Position numbers and translations under genes: made by a program. DNA of 64,000 nt from positions 11,867,841 through 11,931,840 of the forward strand of contig CM021322.1 in the NCBI GenBank assembly GCA_010645155.1, read 5' to 3'. Origin of the DNA: Tigriopus japonicus. Taxonomy: Eukaryota > Arthropoda > Copepoda > Harpacticoida > Harpacticidae. The notes beneath the pieces were generated by a model. It did not search any database, was not told the origin of the DNA, and saw only the letters and a program-made list of their open reading frames with translations. Positions 11,765 through 58,323 of this stretch are shown in pieces; positions within the stretch are counted from its first letter, which is position 1; every line of letters starts with the position of its first letter.

Positions 11765-11770
11765 TTTATT
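11765..11770 (-). terminator. polyadenylation signal of the deiodinase gene
   Basis: AATAAA on the minus strand, about 180 bp past the stop codon and just beyond the predicted SECIS. The SECIS would therefore be retained in a short 3' UTR. Confidence 0.55.
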
Positions 11771-11799: not shown

Positions 11800-11870
11800 G
11801 AACCAATCTGGACATCAAATACTGAATACCTCAAACGAGGTTTTCCACTCAGAATCATCATAACGATTGA
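11800..11870 (-). promoter_or_regulatory. predicted SECIS element, form 2
   Basis: Minus-strand RNA in the 3' UTR can fold as a selenocysteine insertion element. Helix I pairs CAAUC with GAUUG. The non-Watson-Crick core is AUGA at 11861-11858 opposite UGAU at 11817-11814. Helix II pairs GAUUCUGAGU with AUUCAGUAUU, about ten pairs with one U-U mismatch. The apical loop carries the unpaired AAAA and then a mini-hairpin CCUC-GUUU-GAGG, the hallmark of form 2 elements. All pairings were found by eye. Placement downstream of an in-frame TGA in a deiodinase gene strongly supports function. Confidence 0.85.
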
Positions 11871-11950: not shown

Positions 11951-12772
11951 TTAAACAGAGTCAACCGGTTCGGGCTTGTTATTGTTTTTAGCAATCACTG
12001 CTCCAGACTGTTCCAACAAATGGACCAACTTGTCTTCCATCTCCTTAAGATTGTAAAGGAAAGGCCCCCGATTGCCTTGGTATTCGACTTTATGATCTCG
12101 AACAATGTAGAGTCGCTCTGGCATAGCTCCATATAAGATATTGGTCATGTCATCCATGGTGTCAGCCACGATGGGACAGTTCTTGAGGTTCACTTCATCC
12201 TTGAGAATCTGGGCGGCAGCCAGACGTTGTTCCAAGTTCTCATGGGAAGGAATCTCGTAATTGGCTCTCACATGCGCCAGTTCCACAGGGTGGGTCTCTT
12301 CGATGTAGACCACGACAAAATCAGCCAAGTGCGCGTACTTCTCAACGAGAGAATCAAACGCGCGGATCTTGGCCATAAACGGAGGTCAGGTGCAGTTGCC
12401 GAAATTGAGCACCAGAGGGCGATCTCCACGTTGGAGGGACAACAAATCGATCTCGTTCTTTGTTGCCAGATCAATGACTCTTGTATTTGGGGCTTTTTCT
12501 CCGGCCTTGGCCTGACATCTCATGTGCAGAGAGTCCTCTTTGAGAAAGAATCGAACGAACTCAAAGGAGCCGTAAAAATTCCGGACACGGTTCACGTCCA
12601 ATTCGTAGGAGTTGTCGTTCTTGATCGCGTTCACAGTTTTCTGGGCTAAATGAGGTGCAAACGTGTAGGCAAACTTCATCCACAAGACAAACGCCACTTT
12701 GGGGATTTGTCGGAAATATACCCGAACAGTCTCCCAAGGGGTCAGGACAACTTTTGAGTTGTCGTAAAACAT
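11951..12772 (-). CDS. DIO: iodothyronine deiodinase-like selenoprotein
   Basis: A 273-residue thioredoxin-fold enzyme encoded without introns if TGA at 12386-12388 is read as selenocysteine (residue 129). The context is NFGNCT-Sec-PPFMAKI, the deiodinase active-site signature. Downstream, VVYIEETHP, IPSHENLEQRLAAAQ and the C-terminal ERLYIVR and YQGNRGPFLYN segments follow the family pattern. Known deiodinases reductively remove iodine from thyroid hormones at membranes; an arthropod substrate is unknown. Residues from about 15 to 35 include a hydrophobic stretch that could be the membrane anchor. The start is ATG at 12772: an in-frame TAA lies just upstream and no other in-frame ATG intervenes. 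The predicted SECIS is about 90 bp past the stop. Reading on both sides of the TGA is intact and conserved, which argues against a nonsense mutation. Confidence 0.93.
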
Positions 12773-23127: not shown

Positions 23128-23623
23128 TGATATCAAAGCATATTCAATCAGAATGACCCGTAACAAAGGTACTGTTTCCGCTGACCGAAATTCACTTTTA
23201 GTTTCAACAGTTAGAATAATGCTCGAGTAAAACGAGTGTAGGAACTGGTTAACAAATGTTGATTTTCAATTTTAATTGCCGATTCAAATTTGCTTAACTA
23301 CCTTCAAAATATATGCTTGTTCAAGAAATTATTCATAAATATACGTATGTTTCAAGCCAAAAAAGTCACTTTGTCCACAATTATCTTTATATGTCAATAG
23401 ATGGCGCTTATTTGTGTATGTTGTGAATTTGACTGACGTAAGGACCTCCGCTACTGAGGCTCAAATAACAAATAGATAAGGTCAAACTTGTTTTCTGTGA
23501 ACTGAACGATGATATCCAATGCAAGGTGGACAGGTGTCCGTCGAAGTAACTTACACCATTGGGCCACAATAGCTTGCCGAATTCTTTGTTCTAATATTCG
23601 CTCATTGCTCTGGAGGTGACAGC

Positions 23624-25825
23624 ATGTTTGCCAAGGACGTACAGAAGAGCATTCGTGAAGACTTTCCCCATCTACGTGGAACAATCTACTTGGACCAAGC
23701 TGGGTCCGGATTGTATTGCCACTCGCAGATCGAGAATGTCTCTAAAGAGCTTCAGACCAATTTGTTTGTCAATCCTCACACCGATTCTAAATCGCAAGAG
23801 GCTATTGATAATGTGCGTTCCGAAGTCCTGGAATATTTCCACACCAACGACAAGTTGTATAAGGTCATATTTACGTCCGGTGCCACAGAGGCTCTTAAGA
23901 TTGTTGGAGAATGCTTCCCTTTTAAATCCAGAGAGAGAAATTGCTTCGCCTACCTTCAAGATAACCACACGAGCGTCGTAGGATTGAGGGAACTTTTCAG
24001 AAAACAAGATCCCGATATTACTTTGAAGATCATAGATAAAAAGCAATTATGTGAGGGTCCAGATGAGTTAGAATCATTTGATAAAGGATTGTTGGCATTT
24101 CCAGCCATGTCTAACTTTTGTGGCTTCAAATATCTGGTTTCATCCGTCCTGACAAAATGGAACAAAAATTGGAATACGTTATTGGATGCATCTGCCCTGG
24201 TCTCAACTTGTGATTTAAATCTCTCCCATCTTCAACCAGATTTTGTGGTGCTTTCTTTCTACAAAATATTTGGCTACCCCACTGGCCTTGGTGCTCTTTT
24301 AGTCAAATCTTCCGTTTTAGACACCTTAGATAAGGCCTATTTTGGTGGAGGAACCGTAGAAATGCATTTCACAAGGTCAAGTGTCCATGTTCCACGGCGT
24401 TCCCGGGTTGAATTCTTCGAGGACGGAACCTTACCTTACCATCAAATAATGGCTCTTCGTCATGGCTTCGCTGCACTCAAGAGACATGTCATTGGAGGGA
24501 TTCAATCGATAGAGAGCCACACATTTGGTTTAGCTCAATACCTTTACCAAGAGCTGAGTCGTCTCCATCACGGAAATGGCAAACCAGTGGTGGAAGTCTA
24601 TCATTCATCCAGTTATAAAAGTGTTCATGAGCAAGGAGGAATTGTGAACTTTAACTTGCTTCAGTGTGATGGAACTTATTTTGGATTTAATGTTTTTCAC
24701 CGATTGGCTAAACTGGAACGAATCCAAGTTCGAGTAGGATGCTTTTGTAATGTTGGAGCTTGTCAGAACTATCTTAATTTTTGTGATGAGACCATCATGA
24801 ACAACTTCAAACAAGGACATGTTTGCGGCGATGACATCGACATGGTGAATGGCCGTCCAACAGGATCGATCCGGATATCATTTGGCTATTATTCAACAAT
24901 TGACGATGCGAATTTGGTTCTGCAAATGATCCGTGATCACTTTATTCAACAAGATATTCCCCGGAGCCAACTTTCCAATAACCTGGAGGCAATAATCGAG
25001 GCTATCTTTGTTTACCCAATCAAATCTTGTGCACCAATCAAAGTTGATAGTTGGCGGATTTCATCTTCTGGTTTGGAATATGACCGTCATTGGTCCATAA
25101 TGCAAGACGGAAATTGCCTGAATCAAAAGAAAGTGAAGAAGTTGTGCCTGCTTCAACCACATCTAAACCTGACGGAGGGCACATTGACATTAATATTTCC
25201 AGGGATGAACCCCTTGACCTTGGCCATAAACGCAACAAGTGATGTTCTTGAACCGTTTGAAGTCTGTCTGGGAAATGTTTGTGGCGAAACCATGGACGGA
25301 TTCGACTGTGGGAATGCTGCCTCGGATTGGTTGGGCCAAGCACTTGGAATGCCAAATTTGAAACTTATTCGCCTACTCTCTCGGTCATCAGCCAATTTCA
25401 AGGCAATGTCCCTGGCCAATGAGGCTCCATATTTGGTTGTCAACAAATCCAGTGTTGACCTTTTGATGAGAAAGCTGATCGAGGAGAATCACTTCAAGAG
25501 CAGAGACATATCCTCAGAAATACTTCTAGAGCAGTTTCGTGCCAATTTTATCATTTCCGGCAAAACGCCATTTCAAGAAGATCAATGGGAAAGTATCATT
25601 GGACCTGGGTTCAAATTGGCCTTCCATAAACGGTGCCTGAGATGTTCAATGATATCCATAGATCAGAGATCCGGATTAGAACTGACTGGAGTCGTAAAAA
25701 CGCTCACAAGGATGACTCAGCGAGGATTTTGTTTTGGCACTTTATTCAAAAATATTCCTGAAATATCAAGTGCAATAGTAATGGTTGGCACAAAAGTGCA
25801 AATTGAAATAAAAGCCGAGGTATAA
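23624..25825 (+). CDS. MOCOS: molybdenum cofactor sulfurase
   Basis: A 733-residue single-exon protein with the complete family architecture. Residues 1-430 are a class V aminotransferase (NifS-like) domain with YLDQAGSGL near the start, pyridoxal-phosphate lysine Lys214 (SFYKIFGYPTGLG) and the persulfide-type cysteine motif VGCFCNVGACQ at about 371-381. Residues from about 464 form the MOSC N-terminal beta-barrel (VYPIKSCAPI, GLEYDRHWSI), then the MOSC domain with FKLAFHKRCLRCSM. The enzyme adds the terminal sulfur to molybdenum cofactor so that xanthine dehydrogenase and aldehyde oxidase become active. The length is near that of Drosophila maroon-like. An AATAAA at 25807-25812 precedes the stop codon, which implies a very short 3' UTR before the convergent neighbour. 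Confidence 0.96.
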   Translation: MFAKDVQKSIREDFPHLRGTIYLDQAGSGLYCHSQIENVSKELQTNLFVNPHTDSKSQEAIDNVRSEVLEYFHTNDKLYKVIFTSGATEALKIVGECFPFKSRERNCFAYLQDNHTSVVGLRELFRKQDPDITLKIIDKKQLCEGPDELESFDKGLLAFPAMSNFCGFKYLVSSVLTKWNKNWNTLLDASALVSTCDLNLSHLQPDFVVLSFYKIFGYPTGLGALLVKSSVLDTLDKAYFGGGTVEMHFTRSSVHVPRRSRVEFFEDGTLPYHQIMALRHGFAALKRHVIGGIQSIESHTFGLAQYLYQELSRLHHGNGKPVVEVYHSSSYKSVHEQGGIVNFNLLQCDGTYFGFNVFHRLAKLERIQVRVGCFCNVGACQNYLNFCDETIMNNFKQGHVCGDDIDMVNGRPTGSIRISFGYYSTIDDANLVLQMIRDHFIQQDIPRSQLSNNLEAIIEAIFVYPIKSCAPIKVDSWRISSSGLEYDRHWSIMQDGNCLNQKKVKKLCLLQPHLNLTEGTLTLIFPGMNPLTLAINATSDVLEPFEVCLGNVCGETMDGFDCGNAASDWLGQALGMPNLKLIRLLSRSSANFKAMSLANEAPYLVVNKSSVDLLMRKLIEENHFKSRDISSEILLEQFRANFIISGKTPFQEDQWESIIGPGFKLAFHKRCLRCSMISIDQRSGLELTGVVKTLTRMTQRGFCFGTLFKNIPEISSAIVMVGTKVQIEIKAEV

Positions 25826-25873: not shown

Positions 25874-28288
25874 CTAAGAACGACAGATTAACGTAATCGT
25901 TGTCACTGTTAACACCAAGCATCCCGCTAAGAACAAATGGAAAGGCAGGGCTCTAAATCTCCATTGTTCTTCCTTTTTGGCAAACATTCGTATGTTCATG
26001 AGAATGTGGGCCACTCCAAAGTAGCACAAAAATGTGATGCAAGCTATTTGGACTCCATGCTTCAGCGTAATCTTTGTGAAGGAGTCGACAGTTGTCAGGA
26101 TAATGGCCGCAAAGGCCAATCCCATCGCCGAGAATCCAACTAAGGCGTGAGCTACATTGAAGACAATTCTGTTTTTATGCGTTGGATCGCATCTGAGTAG
26201 AGCCATAAAAGGTTGGATGAACATCAGAATGGTCGCTATTAATCCAATAAGGCCATGGGGATTGGTTTTTATCTGTTCTCCTTGCAAAGGGCTGAGGCCG
26301 CTTTCCACGAAAATTATAATGACAGCGGTTATTCCGAGAACCCACGTGGCAGTCATGAACACTTGATGGATTGGAAACCACAAGTCTTTTCCAAAGAGCT
26401 TCTTGTCTTCGAAATCCTTCTTGCAATATCTGGCTGTGAATGTGCCCACACTGGCCAACAAGAACCATGCCAAAATCATGAAGGAACCGTGGAGTTTGAT
26501 TAGTACCTTGGAATTTCCTCGGACTCGATTTCCCTCACTTAGGTCAATGGCCTCTGCTGATTTATCCTGACTGTCGTGTCTGTCTATGACAATGGAGTTT
26601 CCATTGGCTGTGTACATGCCCTTGGCCAGCAATAAGTAGTATTTTTCCGTGGATAAATTGTACATGACGGTTTTATTTTCTCCCCCAGGGATGGGAAGGT
26701 TTAGATTTGACTGCCGCTTGAATTTGCATGTCAAGTAGCCATCCTTGAGAGTTCCTTCGATTCCGGTCAGTCCAAAATGAATATCGTCAAGAGGGATGTT
26801 GCCATATGGGTTCTTGGTGTTCCACGTATTGACGACGTCAACATTGTCGTTGGATCCAAAACAGATCATGGCATTGTTGTCTCCCATATTATTTCCCTCG
26901 GAAATCGCTGCGCCCAAATACTGATGGCCATCGACTTTTCCACTTATGGTCATATCAAAATCATCTTGATCGCTACTCTCAAACGTAAAGAGAACTTCGC
27001 AACTCTTCGTATCTTCACAACCTATGGGAATCCCAAAGCAACCCTTGCCATTTTCGAAACAACCGTCATAAGTTTCACTTGCTCCAAAATAGTTGTTAAA
27101 CTCGGCCAGATTTAATTTATCTGTTGACACCGTCTGGTTCGTATGTTTTTGGACTGCATTATCCACGTAGGGGCCCTTGGCCATTTGAATGAAGTATGAA
27201 ATTTCATTGAGATCGAGCGTGATGCTGGTGGTACCATCTTCAAAGGGTGATGCTATGGTGGATCGAGATTGGATTGTTGCTGTACACAACAAGATTCCGT
27301 CAGTTTCAGAAACGAAGGGCTCTGAAATATCTAGTTGAGGGTTTTCCAAGACTCTTGAATTGTGATACTTGTTCCAATTCCTCTCAATGGTGTTTTTCTC
27401 CGTTGTACACACCAACGCATTGTCGTCGCCCATGAATTCATCCTCGGAAAAAGCCACAGCTACGTATTCTTCAGGATGGGTGGTCATTATTTCAACAAAA
27501 TACTCTGTTTCGCTTACACCAGAGTAGCTGAATGCCATCTCACAATTCTTTTGTTCTGCACAACCTTCTGGAAACCCAAAGCAACCTTTCGTTTTGAAGC
27601 AATCGAAGTAGAACTGGTTAGTCACAATGAACTGGTTGAATTCGCCCAAGTTGATTTTATCGTTGGATACCACTCTGTTTTCTGATTGATGCTTTTTGAT
27701 TATGAAATCTTTTTCTGGGTCCACTTCCCCTCGAGCAAATAAAATGTGGTACAATTCTGAATTCATGTCAAAACTTAGATCAGGCTTGTCTGCGGAAAAC
27801 TGAGGAATTGTCACATTTGCTTCTCTATTGAAAGAACACATGAACCATCCATCCTGGGCTGTTCCACTTATGTTAGTGAGCCCCAACAGGGAATTTTCTA
27901 ACCTTGTAGCAGTGACTGGCTTTGGTCCGTCCTTCCAAGCCAAATACATTTCCAATCGAGGACTTTTGTCGTCTTCGGGAAATGAACAAGCCATTATGCT
28001 GTCGTCCTTCATTTTTGGATCGAGCGAGAGCCCAATTCCCAAATACGTTAATGGGTTTTGCTCTAACCTTTCGCCAAATATTTGAACTTCAAAACCGTCC
28101 TTTGACACTCCCATGTAAGACATGGCAATTTTGCACGATTTTTCTTCCACACAACCATCGGAAAGTCCGATGCAGCCTTTGGTTTCACCACAACCATTGT
28201 AGAACTCCTCGGGCAAAGAAGAGCTGGACGTTCTAACGGCGATTGGATATGCCAAAATGAACACGCCGATCCAAAGTTTGAAGAACAT
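25874..28288 (-). CDS. FRRS1: triple-DOMON cytochrome b561 protein (ferric-chelate reductase 1-like)
   Basis: An 804-residue single-exon protein with a signal peptide (MFFKLWIGVFILAYPIAVRT). Three tandem DOMON repeats follow at about 28-200, 220-395 and 408-575. Each starts with a Cys-rich signature (GCGETKGCIGLSDGC, DCFKTKGCFGFPEGC, GCFENGKGCFGIPIGC). Residues about 586-804 form a six-helix cytochrome b561 domain with candidate heme histidines in LIKLHGSF, FPIHQVFM, NPHGLIG and VAHALVG. Such proteins move electrons across membranes to reduce ferric iron or other extracellular acceptors. Vertebrate FRRS1 has reeler, one DOMON and b561. Here the reeler is absent and DOMON is triplicated. The stop lies 48 bp from that of MOCOS, tail to tail. 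Confidence 0.9.
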   Translation of the reverse strand: MFFKLWIGVFILAYPIAVRTSSSSLPEEFYNGCGETKGCIGLSDGCVEEKSCKIAMSYMGVSKDGFEVQIFGERLEQNPLTYLGIGLSLDPKMKDDSIMACSFPEDDKSPRLEMYLAWKDGPKPVTATRLENSLLGLTNISGTAQDGWFMCSFNREANVTIPQFSADKPDLSFDMNSELYHILFARGEVDPEKDFIIKKHQSENRVVSNDKINLGEFNQFIVTNQFYFDCFKTKGCFGFPEGCAEQKNCEMAFSYSGVSETEYFVEIMTTHPEEYVAVAFSEDEFMGDDNALVCTTEKNTIERNWNKYHNSRVLENPQLDISEPFVSETDGILLCTATIQSRSTIASPFEDGTTSITLDLNEISYFIQMAKGPYVDNAVQKHTNQTVSTDKLNLAEFNNYFGASETYDGCFENGKGCFGIPIGCEDTKSCEVLFTFESSDQDDFDMTISGKVDGHQYLGAAISEGNNMGDNNAMICFGSNDNVDVVNTWNTKNPYGNIPLDDIHFGLTGIEGTLKDGYLTCKFKRQSNLNLPIPGGENKTVMYNLSTEKYYLLLAKGMYTANGNSIVIDRHDSQDKSAEAIDLSEGNRVRGNSKVLIKLHGSFMILAWFLLASVGTFTARYCKKDFEDKKLFGKDLWFPIHQVFMTATWVLGITAVIIIFVESGLSPLQGEQIKTNPHGLIGLIATILMFIQPFMALLRCDPTHKNRIVFNVAHALVGFSAMGLAFAAIILTTVDSFTKITLKHGVQIACITFLCYFGVAHILMNIRMFAKKEEQWRFRALPFHLFLAGCLVLTVTTITLICRS

Positions 28289-56753: not shown

Positions 56754-58323
56754 ATGGTTTTTAAGCTGGTAAGACACACAACCAAAAATTACTCTTTTTC
56801 TTTCACTTTATTTGAGATTGATTTATTGGCCTTTAAAAAAGACCAAAGTAAGGAAACCTTTTTGACAATGTTTTATCCTCAATATGATGGTTGAGGTAGT
56901 TTTTGATTTGTAAAAGCTTTAAAAAACACCCCCGAAAATTTCCTGCTTGAAACATTAGAACGTGCTCTTTGATTTTTTTTTGTTTTTGGCAATTTCAAAA
57001 GCGATCCTCGATCTCAATAGTTTGAGTTTGTGGCTCCAATTGTTTATCGAGAAAATGGTTGGTAGGACTAGTCTTTATGAAAATCTAATGCTCGGCCCAC
57101 CAATATTCGTGACAAGGGAAATTGTGCACTTTTTCAAAACTCCTCAAACGACCTTGCGATGATGAATAACGATCGCAATGATGAATAACGACATTGGCAA
57201 ATGCATGACCGGAACTTTGGTCACGGAGATTTGAACGCAAATTCAAAAGTATGAGATGGAGTTTCAAACCCTCCGTTTTTTGTTTGCAACATCCGACATC
57301 TATCCCGAAATACCATATGGTAACCGAGGGTATGATGATCTTTCGATTGGCCAGATGATATCCCTGTCTTTGAACTTATGTACTTCTATCAAGCAAGCCA
57401 GCAAGCTGACGCAGTCTCACACAGAACAATGATCGCGTCAAAATTGCGTCACCGAAAAGAAAAGAAATAACCTCCCTCATCATCGTATTTCTCAAACAAC
57501 GTGGATTCTGATCGCTCCAGATTGTTTCAATGCGTATTGTTTTTCTTTGTAGGTAACCGCTTTTGTGGTTCCCTTGGCTACTATTGTCTTGGCAGCCACT
57601 CCAGGACCCTACCATCCCCCTCCCACTCCCTATGCTCCCCATGCTCCTCCTCCCCACCACCCAGAACCTGTGTACGCCGACCCTCACCACGCCCCACCTC
57701 ATCATCCTGCCCCACATGCTCCTCATGGGTATTGCGATCCCAAAGCCCCACCCAAGTGCGCCCAACACTCCGACCTTCCCTTCTGCTTGGAGGACCCCGA
57801 GTATCCCGATTATGAGATCGCCAACAAGATCAGCCAAGATCCCATCTTCCTGAAGAAGTACTCCGATGTGCCCGACCAATCTGCTGATGATCTGGTTGAG
57901 CATATCACCAAGTACCAGGAGGATGCCTTCGATTACGCTTACTACACCGGTGCCTCCAAGGGACCCTCTCCTTTCGACCTCTCCCATTGGGCGGGACCTG
58001 AGGGCTACCTCTGCCCCTCCCAAGTGGACTACGCCAAAATCAAGCGGGCCGTGAATGTGGAGGGATACTGGCGTATTATCCTCCAGCACGTTCCCAAAGA
58101 ATACGGCTACGGTCACTACAACTACACCCAAACCACCCGCCTTGAGACCTGCCTCACCCCCGACAGTGCCTGTCGTCTCCTTGCTCCCTGTTACAACTCC
58201 AAGTGTACCCAAAAGTACGTGTACCACCGCATGGTGTCAGTGGATCCTTGTGATCCTTACCGTGGGTTCTTCATTGATACCTACAAGCTCCCATCCGCTT
58301 GCTCTTGCCATGTGCCCCAATAA
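56754..58323 (+). CDS. spz: spatzle-like secreted cystine-knot ligand
   Basis: Exons 56754-56768 (five codons, MVFKL) and 57553-58323 join at phase 0 to 261 residues. The signal peptide (MVFKLVTAFVVPLATIVLAA) is split by the 784-bp intron. Next comes a Pro/His-rich stretch (HPPPTPYAPHAPPPHHPEPV), then ALP-type FCLEDPEYPDYEI spacing. The cystine-knot domain has Cys in GYLCPS, LETCLTPDSACRLLAPCYNSKC and the terminal SACSCHV. Spatzle-family ligands are cleaved outside the cell and bind Toll receptors in immunity and development. Conserved cysteines, the YVYHRMVSVDPCDP strand and CSCHV support the call; the subtype is uncertain. Codon use is markedly GC-ending compared with neighbours, suggesting high expression. 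A likely ATTAAA signal is near 58813. Confidence 0.88.

Follow-up and report, generated by a model that had tools for sequence, protein, structure and literature searches.

A 64,000-nucleotide stretch of the Tigriopus japonicus genome (assembly GCA_010645155.1, contig CM021322.1, positions 11,867,841 to 11,931,840; referred to below as the window) carries on its minus strand, at 11951..12772, a single-exon coding sequence of 273 residues plus a TAA stop codon (11951-11953) for a selenoprotein of the deiodinase family. An in-frame TGA on the same strand (12386..12388) corresponds to residue 129, which the family alignment places at the catalytic selenocysteine (Sec) position, equivalent to Sec170 of Dio3. 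On balance, the evidence favors a functional, single-copy selenoprotein gene of this copepod that belongs to the iodothyronine deiodinases (PF00837), with an altered handling of substrate that would serve iodine salvage or clearance. Judged from its sequence, the product is most likely a working Sec dehalogenase, the chemistry of which follows from the family, and for which we infer a substrate preference unlike that of the vertebrate deiodinases. What may be new is the combination, in a lineage where no thyroid-hormone receptor (TR) was detected, of a catalytic relay that is largely kept and a substrate loop that appears to have been rebuilt.

The protein matches the Pfam deiodinase family PF00837 over residues 26-249 (8.2e-59, 199 bits, with a cut-off of 27). 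Two relatives were obtained with the full-length protein, seven with the part following the TGA, and 124 by an alignment search, of which the best 120 were used; together with P0005 and the window protein these form an alignment of 122 rows, three of them from Tigriopus (the window protein, P0002 and P0004). Shared five-residue words, some of which contain D-G-W, served to collect the 119 rows used for comparison, and many of these rows are fragments. The closest named relative is a Tigriopus californicus protein annotated as ‘type I iodothyronine deiodinase-like’ (P0004), which is 81% identical over the C-terminal half; between residues 133 and 252 each block of 20 has 16-18 identities, and the block 253-272 has six. 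The publicly available gene model of T. californicus opens with the Met directly following the Sec codon and is missing the half that carries the catalytic Sec, evidently because this codon was taken as a stop, which exposes a practical flaw of annotation. The three rows from Tigriopus group together as a clade (SH-aLRT 99) on a long stem, with P0077 and P0078 as neighbors (87), in a tree built by a quick method from few columns and the 97 of 122 rows that had enough letters.

The start of the Omega-loop, to which a role in holding the hormone substrate is ascribed (residues 160-166, encoded at 12275..12295 on the minus strand), reads THPVELA in place of AHPxDGW, and the corresponding stretch of T. 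californicus is THPLELG. The signature AHxxDGW at this loop start, described as a conserved feature of the Dio family as a whole (PMC7506546), is therefore absent from both Tigriopus proteins. In the other 119 rows, the loop Trp column holds Trp in 116, Phe in one (Trinorchestia) and Cys in one, the remaining row ending before it. A second replacement lies next to the active site, where Asn126 (12395..12397, minus strand) occupies the position of the relay Ser of the family (Ser167 of Dio3), so that the window protein reads NCTU and not SCTU; among the 51 non-Tigriopus rows that reach this column there are 42 Ser, one Gly and eight gaps. The rest of the relay is kept, namely Tyr156, Glu159, His161 and His177, with Cys127 and Thr128, as are Arg183, Glu219, Arg220 and Arg235, which belong to the relay and substrate-clamp assignments (roles as given in PMC7506546, PMC9141512 and PMC11592359). 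According to our own mapping from the family alignment, the Dio3 residues with kept equivalents are Cys168, Thr169, Tyr197, Glu200, His202, His219, Arg225, Cys239, Glu259, Arg260 and Arg275. When gaps are excluded, 29 columns hold one residue in at least 88% of rows, and the window protein departs at five of these (S126N, A160T, D164E, G165L and W166A) and keeps 24; T. californicus departs at four of the 19 that it covers (160, 164, 165 and 166), all of them in the loop. Since four of the five departures fall into one loop, they look like remodeling rather than decay. The sequence-only reading, which had called the enzyme catalytically complete, thus holds for the Cys, Thr, Sec, Tyr, Glu and His of the relay, but not for the Ser, which is Asn, or for the AHxxDGW signature, which is lost in both Tigriopus proteins.

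The TGA at 12388-12386 is the only internal stop of the frame from 12772 to 11951 and lies in the context G-N-C-T-Sec-P-P-F-M, followed by 144 residues, and the coding sequence is conserved on both of its sides. The position of this codon, the length of the conserved extension and the intactness of the gene had all been proposed from the letters alone, and each is upheld by an otherwise clean frame from ATG to TAA, by the family alignment, by the near-identical P0002 and by the identity of the T. californicus C-terminal half. P0002, whose source is a different set of public contigs (tag lgn), likewise has a frame of 273 amino acids and is identical at 269 of 273 residues, differing at residues 27, 251 and 270, all outside the core of the catalytic domain, and at the Sec position, where its protein sequence has a Trp that reflects either a TGA read as Trp or a TGG. 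In the 51 non-Tigriopus rows reaching the Sec column, 26 have Cys, 16 have Trp and nine have a gap. The open stretch following the stop (144 codons) is the longest among the 75 frames of at least 100 codons in the window; a second frame, the stop of which is also TGA, continues for 136 codons, so that length alone is no proof. Third codon positions contain 60% G+C before and 57% after the TGA, which exceeds the G+C content of the 1-kb flanks (35 and 40%), and both halves therefore look coding. The protein matches the genome assembly (195 Mb, 158 contigs) once, and a search of plasmid records returned zero matches. An intron around the TGA was considered and rejected, because the codon lies inside the most conserved block.

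About 82 bases 3' of the stop codon, a full-length match (1-64 of 64) to the SECIS_1 family of Rfam (RF00031), the selenocysteine insertion sequence, is found at 11804..11869 on the minus strand, scoring 26 bits, and an AATAAA polyadenylation signal follows at 11765..11770 on the same strand. The E-value of 0.033 refers to 2,301 bases and 4,227 Rfam families and corresponds, by division, to about 8e-6 for the SECIS family alone; it becomes 0.93 over the whole window, where this is the sole SECIS match up to E 10, and a 26-bit match has an E-value of 0.66 across the 195-Mb genome (genome search). The expected SECIS in the 3' untranslated region is thereby borne out and, together with the Pfam match and the T. 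californicus relative, supports the earlier assignment to a crustacean selenoprotein of the deiodinase family. The genome also encodes a tRNA-Sec with anticodon TCA (79.9 bits, the only one of 17 matches to exceed the cut-off) and SepSecS (2.5e-89). From the UGA in the Sec position, the SECIS, the polyadenylation signal, the tRNA-Sec and SepSecS, all of them evidence at the level of sequence, we infer that the UGA is decoded as Sec, and the Tigriopus gene is real and probably functional.

A genome-wide SECIS search, in which 134 of 4,621 candidates were scored, listed two matches, the SECIS of the deiodinase gene not being among them, and does not amount to a census. The best SECIS_1 match among those listed (31.1 bits) is at C4:905854-905917, and no selenoprotein frame was recognized in the 1.5 kb upstream of it. 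Another match of 26 bits, at C12:7363638-7363700, lies downstream of a frame containing RHFA-U-LP-U-R. The U-x-x-U motif is the hallmark of selenoprotein L, which this frame resembles, and a search of the frame piece gave no Pfam match.

A six-frame, intron-blind search of the one assembly with the DNA-binding domain of human TR-beta gave 79 matches, none of them above 59% identity. The highest identity belongs to a fragment of 34 residues, and the best-scoring match is 55% identical, at a locus that we take to be EcR-like. With the zinc-finger profile PF00105, 84 nuclear-receptor matches were found in the genome; 30 of these loci (27 with readable domains) and 13 further regions were inspected, and the rest were covered by the TR-beta similarity search. 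About 17 of the 30 inspected loci have P-boxes such as SCRAFF, SCRGFF and SCKAFF, which are HR96/HR97-like. The 84 matches, many of them in long open frames, compare with a published number of 31 nuclear receptors in T. japonicus, and a large expansion of nuclear receptors in the Tigriopus genome is possible. The missing TR (NR1A) match agrees with the published catalogue of T. japonicus, whose NR1 members are limited to the groups D, F, H, J and L, group A not being named (PMC4247118). By contrast, a TR orthologue has been reported in Daphnia pulex (PMC2045677). The premise that arthropods have no classical thyroid axis thus has to be qualified. Exons of an iodotyrosine deiodinase are present in the genome at C2:4857803-4859455, one piece of which matched iodotyrosine deiodinases of the Protein Data Bank over residues 122-180 (1e-19). 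The question of what an arthropod deiodinase acts on, raised by the sequence-only reading, is well posed and has become more pointed.

In the proposed mechanism, an N-terminal helix would probably hold the enzyme to the membrane, and the selenolate would remove a halogen from an aromatic ring by Sec-based reductive dehalogenation, Cys127 helping to resolve the selenenyl iodide as does the equivalent Cys in DIO1. With less certainty, the substrate may be accepted or positioned differently than in DIO1-3, since replacements affect D-G-W in the Omega-loop as well as the relay Ser while the Tyr, the Glu and the two His are kept. Acting on iodinated phenols of dietary or internal origin, the enzyme might then serve iodine salvage or detoxification, or the clearance of dietary iodothyronines and other halogenated phenols, and would not tune a nuclear TR, for which no gene was found. 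A wider scenario can be offered tentatively, in which copepods, and perhaps crustaceans in general, decoupled the deiodinase from thyroid-hormone signaling; they lost the TR and kept the Sec dehalogenase, and the Omega-loop was rebuilt for a different iodinated or brominated phenol, with loss of the Trp, the Asp-Gly and the relay Ser.

Several points weigh against a rebuilt loop in a functional selenoprotein. The clustering of the departures in the loop (P about 0.003) was computed post hoc, and the count of Trp in 116 of 119 rows may be inflated, since gathering by shared words favors rows with common motifs. The role of the loop Trp rests on simulations, and mutation studies are called for in the paper concerned (PMC7506546). 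The amphipod Trinorchestia keeps D-G, with Phe for Trp, so that the full loop change is shown in Tigriopus only, and the relay Asn is seen in the window protein, the T. californicus evidence covering the C-terminal half alone. The pocket differs from that of Dio3 at three further positions (Lys for Arg176, Pro for Phe258 and Phe for Asp278), yet these are variable within the family, and Lys and Pro at such positions are described for Dio1 (PMC7506546 and PMC11592359). In the structural model the Omega-loop is the least certain part of the core (pLDDT 73 for residues 161-170), and the N-terminal hydrophobic stretch is weak as a membrane anchor, with a mean hydropathy of 0.97 over 19 residues. 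The SECIS score of 26 bits is below the curated gathering score of 35, so that the element is not listed by a default Rfam search, and the scan of the window at Rfam's own threshold indeed gave no SECIS match; its folding energy is ordinary (z -0.97), 33 of 200 shuffled sequences folding equally well.

In a first alternative, the enzyme is an ordinary deiodinase with DIO1-like chemistry that continues to act on T4/T3-like iodothyronines, taken up with food or of local origin, the loop changes being tolerated drift. This alternative is possible, if somewhat doubtful: apart from the Ser, every mapped relay residue is kept, Pro218 and Lys135 agree with the description of Dio1, the loop between the two His has the same length as in P0003, a relative with D-G-W, and the S123A mutation of DIO1 lowers but does not abolish activity (PMC9141512). 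The predicted fold bears on a second alternative. An AlphaFold model from an 87-sequence input, used in preference to a poor three-sequence model (pLDDT 41), contains the Dio catalytic core, a thioredoxin fold with the Dio insertions; its best structural matches are Dio2 and Dio3, and peroxiredoxins and thiol-disulfide oxidoreductases rank directly after them. This ranking, and the fact that the changed part is the substrate loop, would suit a selenoprotein on its way out that has lost deiodination and kept a thioredoxin-like or peroxiredoxin-like redox activity, but the Tyr, the Glu and both His are retained, as is the Arg for which clamping of the substrate carboxylate has been proposed, and this alternative is improbable. 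That the TGA arose by chance, in a pseudogene or through faulty assembly, can practically be dismissed: the codon does break the frame under the standard code, and the window contains another frame that stays open for a similar length after its stop, but the TGA lies at the Sec position of a frame that is clean elsewhere, a SECIS is present, a near-identical second frame occurs in other public contigs and T. californicus keeps the C-terminal half.

The occurrence of a deiodinase in an arthropod is not in itself new, contrary to what the sequence-only reading implied. Entries exist in the protein database for T. californicus (P0004) and the amphipod Trinorchestia longiramus (P0079), and deiodinases are annotated in Antarctic krill and in a prawn (PMC9259678 and PMC12071124), and shrimp are said to possess many selenoproteins (PMC2375036). 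No paper devoted to the iodothyronine deiodinase of an arthropod was found among titles and abstract openings of the open-licence literature, which is weak evidence. Deiodinases are mainly studied as thyroid enzymes, and a Sec deiodinase with a kept relay and a changed loop, in an animal without a detectable TR, constitutes a natural experiment on the role of the loop Trp and on the function of these enzymes before or outside thyroid signaling. If the decoupling is true, it provides a natural variant that separates the loop from catalysis. Tigriopus is a laboratory animal, which makes the natural experiment accessible to testing. Some bacterial-looking rows of the alignment (P0085, named peroxiredoxin by its source, P0088, P0096 and others) have the deiodinase domain and the loop Trp, so that the loop may predate thyroid signaling; NCBIfam includes a ‘deiodinase family protein’ (NF038285).

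Elsewhere in the window, a single open frame of 735 residues at 23618-25822 (plus strand) has aminotransferase V and MOSC domains and is molybdenum cofactor sulfurase-like. A protein encoded at 25877-28288 (minus strand) contains DOMON stretches, three in number, and matches cytochrome b561 slightly below the cut-off, and a Spaetzle-like Toll ligand (PF16077, 2.3e-24) lies at 57553-58320 (plus strand).

Compared with vertebrate DIO1-3 (mouse Dio3, 4tr3/4tr4; Dio2, 9h48), the copepod protein has the catalytic core fold, the CT-Sec-P motif and the Tyr/Glu/His relay in common, whereas in the copepod, to which type 1, 2 or 3 was not assigned, other residues stand in place of the Omega-loop DGW and of the relay Ser. 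Its T. californicus relative P0004 shares the loop THPxEL(A/G)HV. Trinorchestia longiramus P0079 is, like the Tigriopus proteins, a crustacean member without the loop Trp, having Phe, but in contrast to them it keeps the Asp-Gly and the other near-invariant columns checked (18/19). As in Tigriopus, TGA and SECIS occur in the invertebrate deiodinases McDx and McDy of the mussel Mytilus coruscus, for which, unlike the result in Tigriopus, a TR gene is reported (PMC8481496).
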